From: Clostridia bacterium
Lineage (GTDB): Bacteria; Bacillota; Clostridia; Oscillospirales; Acutalibacteraceae
DNA: 64,000 nucleotides
NCBI GenBank assembly: GCA_017380575.1
Contig: JAFODS010000046.1
Coordinates: 89,506-153,505, forward strand
Reading direction: 5' to 3'
How positions within the stretch are numbered: the stretch's first letter is position 1; the number at the start of each line of letters is the position of its first letter. Shown piece by piece: positions 12,527 through 20,446 of this stretch. Position numbers and translations under genes: made by a program. Under the pieces are notes generated by a model. It made no database searches. It was not told the origin of the DNA and saw nothing but the letters and a program-made list of their open reading frames with translations.

Positions 12527-12555
12527 TTGACAAATGGTTCGTCAAAGTATACAAT
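12527..12555 (+). promoter_or_regulatory. promoter of the glycyl radical enzyme operon
   Basis: Consensus -35 TTGACA (12527-12532), then 17 bases, then TACAAT (12550-12555). This is about 38 bases before the first ATG of the five-gene operon. No riboswitch-like structure fits in the short leader. Confidence 0.7.
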
Positions 12556-12593: not shown

Positions 12594-13298
12594 ATGTTAA
12601 TTTTGCAAAAAGGGTTCAATTATTCACAGGATGGACCCGGAAACAGACTTGTGTATCATTTGCAAGGATGCAACTTCCGATGCAAGTGGTGTTCGAATCC
12701 CGAGAGTATGAACGGTGAGGACAAAAACGCAAAAAATTACACGGTGGAGGAGCTTCTTTCGGAGGCAAAACGTAGCCGTATGATGTTTTTTGACGGTGGC
12801 GGAGTAACCTTCACGGGCGGAGAATGTACGCTTCAGTATAAGGAGCTGACAGAGCTTCTGAAAAAGCTTCGGGCAGAGGGGATAAACACCGCAATCGAAA
12901 CGAATGCATCAAGTCCGTATCTTTTGAAGATTGCCGAAAATATCGACTATCTTATTGCAGATTTCAAGCATTATGATACCGATATTCACAAAAAATGGAT
13001 AGGTGTCGGTAACGAAGCGGTCAAGGCGAACCTTGAAAAAATATTCGCTTCGGGCAGGCAGATTCATATAAGAATTCCTGTCATAAAAAACATCAACGAT
13101 AATCCGCAAGGCTTTGTTGATTATTTCAAAAGTTTTGATACCTCATCTGCCGTCTTTGAATTCCTTTCCTACCACGAATTCGGTAAGGATAAATGGACAG
13201 AGGATTATGAAATAGAGGACGGATTTGTTTCAGACGAAACGATTGAGAAATTTATAAAATTATTTAAACAAAACGGAATGAAAGTAACGAAAACATAA
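12594..13298 (+). CDS. glycyl radical enzyme activating enzyme (radical SAM)
   Basis: Uses S-adenosylmethionine and a 4Fe-4S cluster to abstract hydrogen from a glycine of the partner enzyme encoded next. The 234 residues carry the cluster motif C26-x3-C30-x2-C33 (GCNFRCKWC), the SQDGPG motif before it, and the TFTGGEC segment that binds the SAM methionine. There is no ferredoxin-like insert with extra Cys clusters, so it resembles PflA in architecture rather than the longer activases of glycerol or choline GREs. It lies 12 bases upstream of the glycyl radical enzyme. GAGGG precedes the ATG. Confidence 0.92.
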   Translation: MLILQKGFNYSQDGPGNRLVYHLQGCNFRCKWCSNPESMNGEDKNAKNYTVEELLSEAKRSRMMFFDGGGVTFTGGECTLQYKELTELLKKLRAEGINTAIETNASSPYLLKIAENIDYLIADFKHYDTDIHKKWIGVGNEAVKANLEKIFASGRQIHIRIPVIKNINDNPQGFVDYFKSFDTSSAVFEFLSYHEFGKDKWTEDYEIEDGFVSDETIEKFIKLFKQNGMKVTKT

Positions 13299-13310
13299 AG
13301 GAGAATAGCT

Positions 13311-15638
13311 ATGCAAAAAATTTACACTCCCGAAAAATTAACTAAGAAGGCAAAGGCACTCTTTATAAATGAAAGAGCAAAAATGCGTCTTGACGGCTGG
13401 TTTATTGCAAAGGAAGCTGAACTCAACCTTCAGGAGAAATATAAGAACGAGAGCGAGGAAGTAAAGAAAGCTTACATCCTCCGCGAGCTTGTTGATATCG
13501 TACCTCTCTGGATTGATGATAATCAGATTTTTGCAGGCACACAGGACGATGCATTCGCAAGAAGCTATGCTCTTATCAATCCCTCTTTCAGGGTTGAAGG
13601 CTTCAGCGGTTATTGTGACCCTGCGGCTGTTTTCGGCGACATTGAGCCGAATGAAGAATTCACCGCCGAAAGAATTGAAAAGGCAAAGGCTGTTTTCAGT
13701 AAAACTGACTACGCTGTGAAGCTTGGCGAAACATATGCAAAGTGCGAAGACAGCACAAAGGAAGTTATTTATTTCGTTGAGCAGGTTACGGGACATCTTA
13801 TCCCTGATTTCCGTTATGCAATCAAAAACGGTGTTCGTTCAATGATTGATGCAATCAAGGATAAGGACGGCAACGGCTACAAGGCTTTTAAAATTGCTCT
13901 TGAAAGCGTTGTCGCACTTGCAAACAAGTATGCTGACCTTGCAGAAGAAAAGCTTGCTGATGCTGACGATGAACGTAAAGCTGAGCTTGAACTTATGATT
14001 AAAACTCTTCGCAAGGTGCCCGAAAACGGTGCGGAAAATATGTACGAAGCAATGCAGTCTTTCATTCTCCTCTGGCAGATGATGTGTCTTGAACAGACTC
14101 CGAATCCGTTCGCATTTTCAGTAGGTAATGCAGACAGAATTTTTGAGCCGTACAGAAACGGACTTGACCGCGACACGGTTGCAGGTTTTTTCAAGCACTT
14201 CCTCGTTTTCTTCAACGTTGCTGACAGAAGCTGGGCAATTTCACAGAACATTATCATCAGCGGACGTGACAAGGACGGCAACGACCTTACAAACGACACT
14301 TCATACGCTATGCTTGATGCATACTTTGATATGAACCTTCCTCAGCCGATTCTTTCGGTTAAGCTTCACAAGAATACACCGCAGAAGCTTTATGAGGAGC
14401 TTGGCAGATTTTTCTTCACACCGGGTGTGCTTACACCGTCAATGTTCAACGACGATTCACTCTTTGAGGTTCTCGGAGCAAACGGTGTTGACGAAGCTGA
14501 CCTTCCCGATATCTCAATCGCAGGCTGTCAGGAACCGCTTATTATGGGTAAGGACAACGGCAACACAACAAACAGCTGGCTCAACCTTCCGAAGATTCTT
14601 GAAATGACACTCACGGGCGGTATTTCAACAGTTACAGGCGAACGCCTTGCTGATACAAAAGTAGCTTCACTCGAGAATATTCAGGAAGAGTTTTACAAAA
14701 ATGTTGAATTTTTTGTTGCAGAAATGGCAGGTGCAGCAAACGGTGCTTCCGTTGCTCTTTCAACACAGCGTGTACCTTTCCTTTCATGTTTTATGGGCGG
14801 TATGGAAAACGGTATCGATATGCGTGACTTCAACGCTCAGGGAACAAAGTATAACGGCAGCGGATGCCTTATCCACGGCACATCTGTTATCGCCGACTCA
14901 TTTAGCGCAATTGACAAGCTTCTTGCAGAACGTCCTGAGGATGCTGACAAGCTTGTTCCTGCTCTCAAGGCAAACTTCGAAGGCTACGAGGATTTAAGAG
15001 AATTCCTTCTTTCGGCAGATAAATTCGGAAATAACATCGAAAAGGTAGACGACTATGCGGCAGAGGTTGCTTCAAAGGTTGCTGATATCGTTGCGAATGC
15101 AAAGAATTACCTCGGCAACAGCTTACGTCCCGACTTCTCAAGCCCGTCAACACACCTTCTTTACGGTTACTGGGTAGGTGCAACACCTGACGGCAGAAAA
15201 TCAAGAGATATGCTCGGCTACGGTGTTGACCCGCTTTACGGCAGTGCAGAAAACGGACTCGGCTTCCGTATGCTTTCAAATATGAAGCTTCCGTTTGAAA
15301 AGTTCAACGGCGGTTACGCTTCACACCTCGGCATTGACCCGAAATATTTCACAAGCGACTCTGACGAAGGTAATGGTGTTGAATTCAGAGATAAAATCAT
15401 CAATCCTCTTTTCTTCAACGAGCTTAATGAAGGCGTTGCTCCGTTCTATCTCTACGTTAACGTAACAACAGTAGAAATCCTTAAAAAGGTACTTGAAAAT
15501 CCGAAGAAGTATGCTCCGAGCGGAGTTTACATTATGCGAATTCACGGTACATTTGTTAACTTCCTTGATTTGTCACCCGCAATCCAGCAGGATATTATCA
15601 AACGTCTTGACCCGAAATCATCAAATCTTGGTTGCTGA
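13311..15638 (+). CDS. glycyl radical enzyme of unassigned substrate (eliminase-type active site)
   Basis: A 775-residue PFL-like barrel enzyme. The thiyl Cys is C406 in IAGCQEP, and E408 sits two residues later; the Cys-x-Glu pair is known from dehydratase and lyase members such as glycerol dehydratase, whereas pyruvate formate-lyase has Cys-Cys. The radical glycine is G746 in MRIHGTFVNF, 30 residues from the C-terminus. The family usually has an aromatic residue after the Gly, so Thr is odd. It is not pyruvate formate-lyase. The activase lies just upstream and a ketose-type kinase 10 bases downstream, which suggests a polyol, sugar or sugar phosphate substrate. The exact reaction is unknown. 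Confidence 0.9.
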   Translation: MQKIYTPEKLTKKAKALFINERAKMRLDGWFIAKEAELNLQEKYKNESEEVKKAYILRELVDIVPLWIDDNQIFAGTQDDAFARSYALINPSFRVEGFSGYCDPAAVFGDIEPNEEFTAERIEKAKAVFSKTDYAVKLGETYAKCEDSTKEVIYFVEQVTGHLIPDFRYAIKNGVRSMIDAIKDKDGNGYKAFKIALESVVALANKYADLAEEKLADADDERKAELELMIKTLRKVPENGAENMYEAMQSFILLWQMMCLEQTPNPFAFSVGNADRIFEPYRNGLDRDTVAGFFKHFLVFFNVADRSWAISQNIIISGRDKDGNDLTNDTSYAMLDAYFDMNLPQPILSVKLHKNTPQKLYEELGRFFFTPGVLTPSMFNDDSLFEVLGANGVDEADLPDISIAGCQEPLIMGKDNGNTTNSWLNLPKILEMTLTGGISTVTGERLADTKVASLENIQEEFYKNVEFFVAEMAGAANGASVALSTQRVPFLSCFMGGMENGIDMRDFNAQGTKYNGSGCLIHGTSVIADSFSAIDKLLAERPEDADKLVPALKANFEGYEDLREFLLSADKFGNNIEKVDDYAAEVASKVADIVANAKNYLGNSLRPDFSSPSTHLLYGYWVGATPDGRKSRDMLGYGVDPLYGSAENGLGFRMLSNMKLPFEKFNGGYASHLGIDPKYFTSDSDEGNGVEFRDKIINPLFFNELNEGVAPFYLYVNVTTVEILKKVLENPKKYAPSGVYIMRIHGTFVNFLDLSPAIQQDIIKRLDPKSSNLGC

Positions 15639-15648
15639 GGTAGATTAA

Positions 15649-16941
15649 ATGTATTCAATTGGTATAGACATCGGCACAACAAGCATATGTGCAGTGCTGA
15701 TGAATTCACAAACAGGTAAAATTATAACTACGGCAACGCATCAGAACGATTCTTTCATTCCGACACCGAATGTGTGGGAAAAGATTCAGGACGTTGCTGT
15801 GATAGAAGAAAAGGTTTCTGAAGTAATCAGTCATCTTTTTATGAACAAACCCGACGGTGAGGTTGACTCTATCGGCATTTCAAACCAGATGCACGGTATT
15901 ATGTACTACGATGCGGACGGTAATGCTGTCAGTCCGCTTTACATCTGGCAGGACGAAAGAGGCAATCTTCCTTACAAGGACGGCAAAACCTATGCACAGT
16001 ATCTTGGCAGTTTTGCAGGCTACGGCCTTGTAACGGATTTTTATAACCGTGAAAACTCGCTTGTTCCCGAAAAAGCTGTAGGTGTGTGCACAATCGGTGA
16101 TTATATCGCAATGAAGCTTACGGGAACGAAAAAAGCACTTATGCACATCACAAATGCCGCAAGCTTCGGTTGCTTTGACATTAATAAAAACGAATTTACA
16201 ATCGACAATGGTATGCTTCCCGAGGTTACGGCAGATTTTGCAACCGTCGGTGAATGGAACGGAATTAAGGTTTCGGTTGCTGTCGGTGATAATCAGGCAA
16301 GCTTTATCGGCTCTGTCGGAGTGGACGCTCCGCTTCTTAATGTCGGTACAGGCTCGCAGATTTCATATCTTAACGACACACCCGTAACAGGCGAAAATAT
16401 CGAATCACGTCCGTATGACGGAAGACGTTTTCTTATCGTCGGTGCGGCACTCTGCGGAGGACGTGCATTCTCAATGCTTGAACGTTTCTTTGCTTCTGTT
16501 GTTGAAATGGCAACGGGTGAGGAGTGTCCGTCACTTTACAAACAGATTGATAAAATGCTTGAAACAAAAACACAGACAGACCTTGTTGCGGACAGCCGTT
16601 TCTGCGGTACTCGTGCAAATCCTGAAATCCGTGGAGGTTTTTCGAATATGTCGCAGGATAATTTCACGGCAGGAGATGTGGCTGTTTCAATGCTTTATGC
16701 AATTGCAGGTGAGCTTCGTGCAATGTATGCAGGCGGTAAAACAGAAAAAATTGTTTGCTCGGGCAACGGTATAAGAAAAAATCTCGCTTTGCAGAAGGTT
16801 GTTTCTGAAATGTTTGAGGCAGAGATAAAAATTCCTCTTTACGAGGAAGAGGCGGCATACGGTGCAGCATTGACTTCTCTTGTCGCAATCGGCAAAGCTG
16901 AAAATATCGACGAAGCACAAAAACTTATTAAGTACAGGTGA
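15649..16941 (+). CDS. FGGY-family carbohydrate kinase, sedoheptulokinase-like
   Basis: Cytoplasmic sugar or polyol kinase. The 430 residues start with the ATP-phosphate motif GIDIGTTSICAV. They continue with GISNQMHGI and the IWQDERG substrate loop, then TNAASFGCFD, a VGDNQASFIGS glycine-containing loop and NVGTGSQISYL. The pattern GISxQMHG, WQDxR, NAASxGxF and a later GxR follows my memory of sedoheptulokinase better than xylulokinase or glycerol kinase. The true substrate could be another ketose or an anhydro-polyol. It lies between the glycyl radical enzyme and the mannose isomerase gene, and so is a natural candidate to phosphorylate that enzyme's substrate or product. Confidence 0.85.
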   Translation: MYSIGIDIGTTSICAVLMNSQTGKIITTATHQNDSFIPTPNVWEKIQDVAVIEEKVSEVISHLFMNKPDGEVDSIGISNQMHGIMYYDADGNAVSPLYIWQDERGNLPYKDGKTYAQYLGSFAGYGLVTDFYNRENSLVPEKAVGVCTIGDYIAMKLTGTKKALMHITNAASFGCFDINKNEFTIDNGMLPEVTADFATVGEWNGIKVSVAVGDNQASFIGSVGVDAPLLNVGTGSQISYLNDTPVTGENIESRPYDGRRFLIVGAALCGGRAFSMLERFFASVVEMATGEECPSLYKQIDKMLETKTQTDLVADSRFCGTRANPEIRGGFSNMSQDNFTAGDVAVSMLYAIAGELRAMYAGGKTEKIVCSGNGIRKNLALQKVVSEMFEAEIKIPLYEEEAAYGAALTSLVAIGKAENIDEAQKLIKYR

Positions 16942-16945
16942 TTTT

Positions 16946-17965
16946 ATGTTTTTTGATTATCCTATATTTTTTGAAAAGAACCGTGTTTTCCGTGTTTATA
17001 AGGGTGGAAAGCTTTTTGCGGATTTCTTTTCCGATGACTCAACAGACGGCAATTATCCCGAAGAATGGGTAGTTTCTGCAGTTCACGCTCTTAATGAGGG
17101 CAGTACAGACGAATACGAGGGCATTTCAAAAATTCAGGGTGCTGACCTTTATCTCAGCGATGCTCTTAAGGAATATAAAAACGAGCTTCTCGGCGACAGA
17201 GAGGATATCGGAATTCTTACAAAGATTCTTGACAGTGCAATCCGTCTTCCTGTTCAGGCTCACCCGGATAAGGCTTTTTCAAGAGCTCATTTCAACTCTA
17301 ATTACGGTAAAGAAGAAAGCTGGGTTATCCTTGCAACAAGGCCCGATGCGAAGATTTTTTACGGCTTCAAAAAAGGCGTAACAATGGAGCAATTTGAAAA
17401 GGCTATTGAAGCGAGCGAAACAAGCCTCACGGCAATGGAAGAACTGCTTGAATCTTTCCCTGTTAAGTCAGGTGACATCATTTACATCCCTGCAAAAATG
17501 GTTCACGCTATCGGTGCAGGCTGTCTTCTTCTTGAAGTTCAGGAGCCGACGGATTTCACAATTCAGCCTGAACGTTGGTGCGGTGAATACAGACTTTCGG
17601 ATAACGAGATGTATCTCGGTCTTGATAAGAAAACTGCACTTGAATGCTTTGATATGGAAAAAACTTTCCCGGCACCCCTTTCAAGCAAACCGCTTGCAAG
17701 CGAATCGGGAGTTAACTATCAGTCAGTAATTGACGAGAGCATTACAGAAAGCTTCAAGGTAAGAAAGATTATCTTTGACGGTGGCAACTTCGTCCTTGAT
17801 AAGGGTGCTTGCATCTACGTTGTTACTGAGGGCAATGGCAAAATCGTTGGTGACAGCTACGAGAAAGCAGTCACCAAGGGTGATTATTTCTTCGTTCCCG
17901 AAGCAATTAAAAATAAATTCTCAATCACAGGCGAAGATATGACAGTAGTTGAGTGCTATAAATAA
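16946..17965 (+). CDS. class I mannose-6-phosphate isomerase-like protein
   Basis: Zinc cupin enzyme that interconverts mannose-6-phosphate and fructose-6-phosphate. The 339 residues contain the metal ligands Q104 and H106 in VQAHPDKAF, Glu in GKEESW (about 123-124), and a His in KMVHAIGAG (about 190). The short length and the C-terminal small cupin fit the Firmicutes ManA type. The ATG at 16946 follows the kinase stop by 4 bases; a longer in-frame extension into the kinase gene has no ribosome binding site. Its place between the kinase and the alpha-mannosidase points to mannose use. Confidence 0.85.
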   Translation: MFFDYPIFFEKNRVFRVYKGGKLFADFFSDDSTDGNYPEEWVVSAVHALNEGSTDEYEGISKIQGADLYLSDALKEYKNELLGDREDIGILTKILDSAIRLPVQAHPDKAFSRAHFNSNYGKEESWVILATRPDAKIFYGFKKGVTMEQFEKAIEASETSLTAMEELLESFPVKSGDIIYIPAKMVHAIGAGCLLLEVQEPTDFTIQPERWCGEYRLSDNEMYLGLDKKTALECFDMEKTFPAPLSSKPLASESGVNYQSVIDESITESFKVRKIIFDGGNFVLDKGACIYVVTEGNGKIVGDSYEKAVTKGDYFFVPEAIKNKFSITGEDMTVVECYK

Positions 17966-17975
17966 GGAGAAATTT

Positions 17976-20411
17976 ATGGATAAGAAGTATTTTCTTATGG
18001 GCAATGCCCATCTTGATCCCGTATGGCAGTGGAGAGTACCCGAAGGACTTGCACTTGTAAAGTCAACCTTCAAGGCTGCTCTTGACAGAATGGAAGAATT
18101 CCCCGACTATGTTTTCACTTCAGCTTGTGCAGGCTATTATCAGTGGATAAAGCTTTCCGAGCCTGAAATGTTTGAAGAAATAAAGAAAAAGGTTGAAGAG
18201 GGCAGATGGCAGTACACAGGTGCAATGTGGGTACAGCCCGACTGTAACATTCCTTCAGGCGAGGCATTTGCGCGTCATTTCCTTTATTCGCAGAAGTTCT
18301 ATCAGGAAAACTTCGGCAAAAAAGCCGAGTCTGCATACAACGTTGACTCTTTCGGTCACAACGGTATGCTTCCTCAGCTTATGGCAAAGTCCGGCATAAA
18401 AAATTATGTTTATATGCGTCCGCACAGAGGCCCTGAAAAGCCGAACCTTCCGTTTGAAAATCTCCATTGGTGGGAAAGTCCCGACGGAAGCCGTGTTCTT
18501 GCTTTCAGGATTCTTGACGGTTACGGTGACAACCTTCGTGAAGAAAGAATTGAACGCTATGAATCACAGCCGCATTCGCAGATTCTAGCTTACGGTGTCG
18601 GTAACCACGGCGGCGGCCCGTCAATCGAAACTCTTCAGATGGCTGAAAAACTCCGTGAGGGCGAAGGTAAAGAAAAATACATCTATTCGGGTGTTGATAA
18701 ATATTTTGACTATGTCAGAAACAATGAACCCGACGATTTCCCTGTAGTCAAAGAGGATTTACAGCACCATGCAAGCGGTTGCTACAGTGCAAATTCAAAG
18801 GTGAAGATGCTCAACCGTCAGGCTGAAAACGGACTTGTTTATGCAGAAAAGCTTGACGTTATGGCAAATGTTCTTACAGGCTCAGATACACAGACTGACA
18901 GAATTGAAAGAGCGTGGCAAAGGGTTATGTTCAATCAGTTCCACGATATCCTTGCAGGCTGTTCAATCAAGCCTGCTTATGACGATGCTTATTCAGCATT
19001 CGGTTGTGCGAAGGAGGTTGCTCTTGAAGTCGGCACTTTTGCTGCAGAGCGAATTTCGTGGAGAGTAAACACAACAAAGTTCTTCGAAAACGGTGTTCCC
19101 GAACAGCGCGGAAGACTCTGGGTACGTGAGGGCGAAGGTAGTCCGATGGTTGTTTTCAATCCTCATTCTTTCCCTGTAAAGGAATATGTCAGCTTCGGCA
19201 CACAGTGGGTATCGGGTGTTGTTGATTCCAACGATAACGATGTTCCGTTCCAGCTCGTTCGTGCACCTTACACAGACGGTGACCACGTGAATATGTGTAT
19301 GTTCGAAGTCGAGATGCCTGCATTCGGCTACGCTACATATTATATCTATAAAGAAGATCAGAACCACGAAGCAAAGACAATTGAAAATCAGTTTGTTATC
19401 ACGGAAAATTCAATCGAAAACAGCGTTGTAAAGGTTGAATTTGACGCTGACGGTGCAATCAAGTCTTACTTCAATAAGCTTGAAAACAAAGAATATTGTG
19501 CTTCACCAATGAAGGCTGTTGTTTGTGAGGATATTGAAAGCGATACCTGGGGTCATATGGTCTTTGACTATAACAAGGATATCGGCTCTTTCTCCAATGC
19601 AGAGTTTAAAATCCTTGAAGAAGGTACTCTCCGTGCAACGCTCAAGGTAACTTCGTATTATAACGATTCAAAGCTTGAACAGTATTTCACTCTTTACAAG
19701 GACAGCCCGAAGGTGGCTGTAAAGAGCAGAATTAACTTCAAAGAAAAGTACAAGATTCTCAAGCTTACATTCCCGATGAACATCGAAAATCCCGAGGCTG
19801 TTTATTCGATGCCTTACGGATTTATCAAAAAAGCTCCCGACGGACTTGAAGAACCTGCACAGAAATGGATTTCTGTTAACGGTGACAACGGCGGTGTTGC
19901 TCTTATCAATAACGGCAGATACAGCTTCTGTGTCAAGGATAATGAAATGCGAATGGTTGTAGCTCGTACCTGTGCATACCTTGATCATTTCGGTCAGCGT
20001 TCACGTGACGATGAAATCGCATTCATCGATATGGATGAGCTTGAGCTTGAATATGCACTTATTCCGCACGCGAAGGATGACTTCACGGCAGTAGTGAAAG
20101 AAGCTGAAGTTCTTAATATGCCTCTTCAGCTTTATCAGGAAACTCACCATAAGGGCACATTACCGCCTGTTTTTGAGGGCATTACGGTTGACTGTGACAA
20201 TGTTATCGTTACCGCTCTCAAGCTTTCAGAGGACGGAACGGGTTATATCGCACGTGCTGTTGAATGTGCCTCAAAGCCTGTTATGGCAGAGTTCAATTTC
20301 AAGCTTCTTGACAGAAAGTTTGCTTTTGACTTCAAACCGCAGGAAATCAAAACGATTTTCATTCCTAAAGAAGGCGGAAGCGTCAAGGGTGTACCAACAA
20401 CTGAAAAATAA
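17976..20411 (+). CDS. GH38 alpha-mannosidase
   Basis: Cleaves alpha-mannosides, or in MngB-like members mannosyl-glycerate phosphates, by a retaining zinc-dependent mechanism. The 811 residues open with the zinc motif NAHLDPVWQW (H12, D14). The nucleophile Asp124 lies in NVDSFGHNGMLPQL, and the later zinc His in NQFHDILAG. There is no signal peptide, so it works on imported oligosaccharides. The start at 17976 is chosen for AAGGAG six bases upstream. It is the last gene of the operon, followed by a strong terminator. Confidence 0.93.
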   Translation: MDKKYFLMGNAHLDPVWQWRVPEGLALVKSTFKAALDRMEEFPDYVFTSACAGYYQWIKLSEPEMFEEIKKKVEEGRWQYTGAMWVQPDCNIPSGEAFARHFLYSQKFYQENFGKKAESAYNVDSFGHNGMLPQLMAKSGIKNYVYMRPHRGPEKPNLPFENLHWWESPDGSRVLAFRILDGYGDNLREERIERYESQPHSQILAYGVGNHGGGPSIETLQMAEKLREGEGKEKYIYSGVDKYFDYVRNNEPDDFPVVKEDLQHHASGCYSANSKVKMLNRQAENGLVYAEKLDVMANVLTGSDTQTDRIERAWQRVMFNQFHDILAGCSIKPAYDDAYSAFGCAKEVALEVGTFAAERISWRVNTTKFFENGVPEQRGRLWVREGEGSPMVVFNPHSFPVKEYVSFGTQWVSGVVDSNDNDVPFQLVRAPYTDGDHVNMCMFEVEMPAFGYATYYIYKEDQNHEAKTIENQFVITENSIENSVVKVEFDADGAIKSYFNKLENKEYCASPMKAVVCEDIESDTWGHMVFDYNKDIGSFSNAEFKILEEGTLRATLKVTSYYNDSKLEQYFTLYKDSPKVAVKSRINFKEKYKILKLTFPMNIENPEAVYSMPYGFIKKAPDGLEEPAQKWISVNGDNGGVALINNGRYSFCVKDNEMRMVVARTCAYLDHFGQRSRDDEIAFIDMDELELEYALIPHAKDDFTAVVKEAEVLNMPLQLYQETHHKGTLPPVFEGITVDCDNVIVTALKLSEDGTGYIARAVECASKPVMAEFNFKLLDRKFAFDFKPQEIKTIFIPKEGGSVKGVPTTEK

Positions 20412-20416
20412 AAAAC

Positions 20417-20446
20417 AAGGTAGCAACTTTTTACGGTTGCTACCTT
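20417..20446. terminator. bidirectional intrinsic terminator
   Basis: Perfect 11-base arms AAGGTAGCAAC / GTTGCTACCTT with an 8-base loop, T-rich on the plus side and A-rich on the other. It lies between the convergent alpha-mannosidase and acyl-CoA synthetase genes. Confidence 0.9.

Follow-up and report, generated by a model that had tools for sequence, protein, structure and literature searches.

Much of the difficult chemistry in the anaerobic gut is the work of glycyl radical enzymes (GREs), and assigning further branches of them has brought new nutrient routes to light. In work by Ma et al., as told in the accessible part of PMC12441222, YbiW and PflD open anhydrohexitol 6-phosphates to 1-deoxyfructose 6-phosphate after uptake by the phosphotransferase system (PTS). 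Here, we analysed a 64,000-nucleotide stretch of the Clostridia bacterium assembly GCA_017380575.1 (contig JAFODS010000046.1; 'the window'), in which five same-strand open reading frames (ORFs) at 12594-20411 code for an activase, a GRE, an FGGY kinase, a ManA-like isomerase and a protein of glycoside hydrolase (GH) family 38. The stable unit is activase-GRE-kinase. We read it, with somewhat less than even confidence, as a module for anaerobic sugar catabolism whose radical step precedes phosphorylation. No report of such a module was found in the literature searched, which left out most subscription journals. The small accompanying gene set makes the substrate of this GRE branch testable, and if the kinase is truly a fructokinase, a new FGGY group would be assigned as well.

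Gene content around the glycyl radical enzyme

The five genes lie on the + strand, with gaps of 12, 10, 4 and 10 bases. The activase (12594..13298, 234 residues) is a radical SAM protein that matches Pfam Radical_SAM and TIGR02494 (175.6 bits, cut-off 174.35). It is followed by the GRE (13311..15638, 775 residues), the kinase (15649..16941, 430 residues), the isomerase, which resembles type I phosphomannose isomerases (PMIs; 16946..17965, 339 residues), and the GH38 alpha-mannosidase (17976..20411, 811 residues). The last two are counted from ATG codons, at 16946 and 17976; the ORF list gives upstream TTG starts at 16880 and 17949, respectively. These coordinates bear out the one-direction operon with 4-12-base gaps of a preliminary description of this DNA. 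Its family names stand for the Radical_SAM, PFL-like, FGGY and Glyco_hydro_38 proteins by Pfam, and 'ManA-like' holds loosely, the isomerase reaching 89 bits against the ManA TIGR00218 cut-off of 116.2.

We collected 95 further loci, made up of the best 80 of 248 relatives and 15 from other searches. The set is partly redundant, as at least two pairs share a contig (L066/L134 and L091/L136), and loci cut at contig ends count as misses. The same-strand runs around the GRE include the kinase in 89 loci, the activase in 87, the ManA-like gene in 54 and GH38 in 9. Ninety runs carry the kinase label, that of L105 being an XylB-type stand-in (50 bits), hence 89. In four of the five kinase-less runs, the contig ends at the GRE (L060, L107, L147 and L148), and the fifth, L052, comes from a genome (G016) whose kinase is on a contig other than that of the GRE. 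In 83 loci the GRE and kinase genes are adjacent, a median of 9 bases apart.

The same link was found in a class-level sample of 391 genomes. Fourteen of them match the GRE at E<=1e-150, the weakest match being a fragment at 832 bits, and all 14 have the kinase; at that threshold, relatives scoring from about 265 to 500 bits would escape the search. G012 (86% complete), the only genus genome lacking a GRE match, likewise shows none to the kinase. The tie between the GRE and a sugar kinase, noted in the preliminary description, was supported (89/95 runs, 14/14 genomes). By that description, an activase-GRE pair unlinked from the three sugar genes in homologues would speak against its reading, and here the outcome is mixed: the kinase stays linked, and the isomerase and mannosidase are often not.

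GH38 is an accessory of the module. The window protein passes the N-terminal, middle and C-terminal domain tests, with no signal peptide seen by eye. At GRE loci, GH38 proteins are of two types, of 805-822 residues and of 1012-1132 residues at 24-26% identity, in addition to one fragment. By position, 10 of the 17 GRE-bearing genus genomes have a GH38 gene near the GRE. All 18 genus genomes have 3 to 8 GH38 matches each, so finding one in a genome says little by itself. With GH38 in 9/95 runs and the ManA-like gene in 54/95, the five genes as one fixed pathway were ruled out, and the single compound proposed for all five enzymes is unlikely given the two types of this accessory.

Motifs and relatives of the glycyl radical enzyme

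The GRE has a PFL-like domain (Pfam PF02901, 340 bits), an active-site Cys, a C-terminal Gly and a cognate radical SAM activase, the radical itself being predicted. A Glu two residues past the active-site Cys is the mark of GRE eliminases. The presumed thiyl cysteine and catalytic glutamate belong to C406-Q407-E408 (14526..14534, +), as first described, and the corresponding motif, GCQEP, is invariant (95/95 loci). The presumed radical glycine is G746, in RIHGTFVNF (15546..15548, +). RIHGT was found in 94/95 loci, and the exception, L147, ends at residue 666 at a contig end. In 16 correctly read other GREs, the glycyl loop reads R-V/I-x-G followed by Y, F or W. H162 and R765 are also invariant in the family alignment.

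The GRE scores below every NCBIfam cut-off tested. The TIGR01774 subfamily model gives 236 bits versus 678, and the best equivalog, HypD, gives 182 bits versus 1100. Together with HypD, the models for CutC, HpsG, HpfG, indoleacetate/hydroxyphenylacetate decarboxylase and PFL1 give at most 182 bits, for cut-offs of 994-1150. Identity to PflD and YbiW is 24.0 and 21.6%, respectively, and these two enzymes share 38.8%. In 60 related genomes, that of the window included, members of the GRE family have at least 1069 bits and 62% identity, and the next group at most 189 bits and 31%. A search of 398 genomes of the phylum down to E 1e-75 gave other matches at 265 bits at best. In a plasmid collection, all 140 records were under 60% identity to the query, the best at 26%.

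In a tree with 15 other GREs, PflD and YbiW, the family forms one side of a long branch (support 91/91, with row L026 in a misread frame). A corrected tree with 8 of 22 family rows gave a stem of 2.2 changes per column with a Shimodaira-Hasegawa-like approximate likelihood ratio test (SH-aLRT) value of 100, by a quick method and with long branches meeting. We found no tight clustering with PflD or YbiW, which stand on a separate side of the tree. Membership of an assigned family was ruled out by the NCBIfam cut-offs, the distant solved matches and the 22-24% identity to YbiW/PflD, and the GRE remains unassigned by the models tested, as had been claimed. Judging by these comparisons, it is an isolated branch, distant from the assigned GREs compared. 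Its relatives are found in clostridia, mostly in metagenome-assembled genomes (MAGs) of gut origin, with ruminants, deer and horses as hosts. Two loci come from isolates, Sporanaerobium hydrogeniformans (L067) and Ohessyouella blattaphilus (L094).

The source genome holds two more GRE matches, a 730-residue frame (360 bits, G000:C19:10188-11564) and a PFL-like protein (687 bits, G000:C14:36832-38592). The activases of this one GRE family come in two forms: a long one of 286-302 residues, which carries a cysteine-rich insert, and a short one (median 239 residues) that lacks it, like that of the window. The 12 long-form proteins are those of L082, L105, L106, L108-L111, L139, L140, L143, L145 and L146; the cysteine count used is crude and also flagged six short, insert-less activases.

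Kinase substrate and order of the steps

The kinase matches Pfam FGGY_N (73.2 bits) and FGGY_C (34.3 bits) and has the QMHG and GDNQA motifs. It is below every NCBIfam cut-off, the best model being XylB (TIGR01312, 85.4 versus 380 bits). A profile built from GRE-linked members matches 35 of the 391 class genomes at E<=1e-60, namely all 14 with the GRE and 21 without. We analysed the surroundings of 20 of these 21 GRE-free kinases, leaving out G128, whose match is at a contig end. Seven have a GH32 or GH172-family gene as neighbour. In L179, a GH32 gene and the start of the kinase gene overlap by 4 bases, and two further GH32 genes are downstream; in L185, a GH32 gene is 6 bases from the kinase. 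In L194 (6862-9978), GH32 (GH32N) and kinase FGGY_N domains are in a single 1038-residue frame, with two further GH32 genes upstream. A DUF2961/GH172 gene adjoins the kinase in L188, L190, L191 and L193; it was recognised through Pfam in L190, and through BLAST to L142 in L188, L191 and L193. Other GRE-free loci have a GH78-like neighbour (L187) or, on the other strand, a nearby D-psicose 3-epimerase gene over the cut-off (L181).

In the kinase tree, with 19 of the 20 GRE-free rows (L196 is too short), the GRE-free sequences are interspersed, with 6 label changes, at least 4 of them forced by well-supported branches (quick method). A shared kinase function is therefore the simplest reading. 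GRE-bearing loci have related neighbours: DUF2961 and GDSL esterase genes between GRE and kinase in L142, D-psicose 3-epimerase over the cut-off in L094 and L055, Lyx_isomer over the Pfam cut-off in L144 and L074 (below that of NCBIfam in L144), and PfkB genes in L144 and L055. From the GH32/GH172-family neighbours, we infer that the kinase acts on free fructose-type ketoses. In L196 (5266-6171), a MerR-type DNA-binding domain is fused before the FGGY domain, which suggests that this kinase may also regulate. The N-terminus of the L195 protein resembles that of L196, with no Pfam MerR match.

The isomerase represents a subfamily of its own, with at least 497 bits in 10 of the 391 class genomes and a next score of 251. 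Nine of these 10 genomes also have the GRE, in G137 with GRE and isomerase on separate contigs. In Pfam, Cupin_2 alone is barely over its cut-off and two PMI models are barely under. The presumed zinc ligands Q104, H106, E124 and H187 are invariant. We take the Arg of the TYRxYD motif of phosphomannose isomerase to bind the 6-phosphate, a role for which no paper was found in the literature searched. Aligned to PDB 1qwr, Q207 (17564..17566, +) replaces this Arg in 15/15 isomerases. The source genome has a separate canonical ManA (184.7 bits, cut-off 116.2). Based on these two features, conversion of free mannose to fructose by the isomerase is plausible. A mannose/fructose context was supported, in line with the mannoside and ketose metabolism of the preliminary description.

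We propose that the activase would place the radical on G746, from which it would pass to C406. The C406 thiyl radical would abstract a hydrogen from an OH-bearing carbon of a free sugar or polyol, and E408, as a base, would help expel the neighbouring C-O group. These roles follow general GRE chemistry, and the invariance of the three residues fits hydrogen abstraction and elimination. The product would be a fructose-like free ketose, which the kinase would then phosphorylate for glycolysis. We infer the kinase substrate and the order of the steps, the GRE being placed first since a free ketose seems to be what the kinase phosphorylates; the GRE substrate is a guess. In the best-precedented version, a 1,5-anhydrohexitol ring would be opened to 1-deoxyfructose, in a PTS-independent counterpart of YbiW/PflD, but this substrate is unlikely given the TAL_FSA counts below. 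In the window, GH38 and the isomerase would provide a second feed to the same kinase, from mannoside to mannose to fructose. More generally, it is conceivable, and we suggest it tentatively, that a new GRE subfamily with a recoded glycyl loop (RIHGT) produces a free ketose from an anhydrosugar or glycosyl-polyol that bears no phosphate, and that a previously unassigned fructose-type FGGY kinase, which GH32 and GH172 modules share interchangeably, feeds this ketose into glycolysis.

Several observations weigh against a radical step that yields a free fructose-type ketose. The kinase scores about equally with gluconate, glycerol and xylulose kinases, so that its own sequence names no substrate. 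By reading, 12/20 GRE-free loci have no GH32, GH172 or psicose epimerase gene near the kinase, and the three GH32 cases share one kinase clade, the four GH172 cases a second one. The GH172 enzymes may have arabinofuranosides as substrates instead (for DUF2961, see the accessible part of PMC8605356). The GRE itself is far from YbiW and PflD. Fructose-6-phosphate aldolase (FSA) genes over an equivalog cut-off occur in L138, where the gene separates GRE and kinase, and in L105, where it follows the GRE; in Escherichia coli, ybiY-ybiW adjoins fsaA. Nevertheless, 27/34 GRE genomes, that of the window included, have no TAL_FSA (transaldolase/FSA-family) gene; among the 16 genomes with a completeness of 90% or more, 10 have none. 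A 1-deoxyfructose-6-phosphate/FSA route was therefore rejected as general, unless another aldolase serves. In glycerol dehydratase (1r9d), we take the diol-binding residues to be H164, H281, S282, D447 and R782, with Y640 as a further contact. H281, S282, D447 and Y640 align with F267, A268, T420 and S610 of the GRE, and so this precedent gives no substrate.

The kinase might instead act first, as the preliminary description had it: an imported polyol or anhydrosugar would be phosphorylated, and the GRE would then open or dehydrate the phosphate, like YbiW/PflD after PTS uptake. The E. coli anhydrohexitol 6-phosphate precedent speaks for this order, as far as told in the accessible part of PMC12441222. 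No PTS gene was noticed among the neighbouring ORF starts, where none was specifically searched for, and the kinase could replace a PTS; FSA beside the GRE in L138 and L105 fits either order. However, the seven GRE-free kinase loci tied to GH32 or GH172-family genes argue against it, as does the loss of the presumed phosphate-binding Arg in the ManA-like protein. In L105, a kinase over the XylB (xylulokinase) cut-off takes the place of the family kinase, and neither YbiW nor PflD is closely related to the GRE. We consider the kinase-first order unlikely. This L105 locus, from a Blautia MAG, also has a GatZ/KbaZ-like gene (L105:8195-9493), which with the XylB-type kinase gene follows the GRE and FSA genes.

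A GRE with a fermentative or other non-sugar reaction, merely co-regulated with sugar use, is rather less likely than that. In 21 class genomes the kinase is present and the GRE is not, and in G016 the two are on separate contigs, but the kinase accompanies every GRE of the class sample (14 genomes), the two genes are neighbours in 83 loci at a median of 9 bases, and G012 lacks matches to both. Least probable is cleavage by the GRE of a sugar-polyol ether, such as a mannosyl-polyol, to mannose or fructose and a small carbonyl, with isomerase and kinase leading to fructose 6-phosphate: it would explain runs of activase, GRE and kinase alone (e.g. L068, L092 and L104) and the recurring mannose-type isomerases and mannosidases of unrelated types, with no need for a special aldolase, but no gene suggests a glycosyl-polyol substrate and we know of no GRE that cleaves an acyclic glycoside.

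Operon surroundings and comparison with known systems

A promoter-like TTGACA-17-TACAAT sequence (12527..12555, +; 11/12 matches in a consensus scan) precedes the activase gene. The consensus promoter noted earlier is thus present, but such matches are frequent in the window (49 found versus 25.5 expected in shuffles). A terminator-like hairpin of 12 pairs (20417..20446, +) follows the GH38 gene. The operon is an island, because an arginine gene set upstream and an AMP-ligase gene downstream, named from their translations, run on the other strand.

Among the other neighbours, named from their N-termini where no family search backs the name, cyclophilin, SecB-like, TauE, rubrerythrin, Mur ligase and arginine genes seem to track lineage rather than function. 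Genes for Rbs/Ara-type sugar ABC importers are upstream of L094, L105 and L109. Such neighbourhoods suggest a function but do not demonstrate it. In 14 loci, a protein of ~216-227 residues is encoded after the ManA-like gene (e.g. L070:14759-15439); one member was scanned, with no Pfam match.

Lastly, we compared the proteins of the window with described systems. The isomerase keeps the presumed zinc ligands of class I ManA (PDB 1qwr) but has Q207 for the TYRxYD Arg and is under the ManA cut-off. The kinase shares FGGY_N/FGGY_C, QMHG and GDNQA with the FGGY xylulokinases, gluconokinases and glycerol kinases; it differs from them in being short and below every NCBIfam cut-off, and its neighbours point to fructose-type ketoses. 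The best solved match of the GRE profile is the B12-independent glycerol dehydratase (PDB 1r8w, 278 bits), with which the GRE shares Cys-x-Glu, the radical Gly and the equivalents of H164 and R782 (H162 and R765). The two are nevertheless distant (236 bits versus a group cut-off of 678), and the differences at F267, A268 and T420, which are invariant in the family alignment, together with S in place of Y640, set the GRE apart from glycerol/propanediol dehydratases. As for YbiW and PflD, the GRE resembles them in its sugar context, including the adjacent FSA gene of L138 and L105, which parallels fsaA beside ybiY-ybiW in E. coli, and differs in sequence (22-24% identity), in its tree branch (SH-aLRT 100) and in having an FGGY kinase in place of the PTS.

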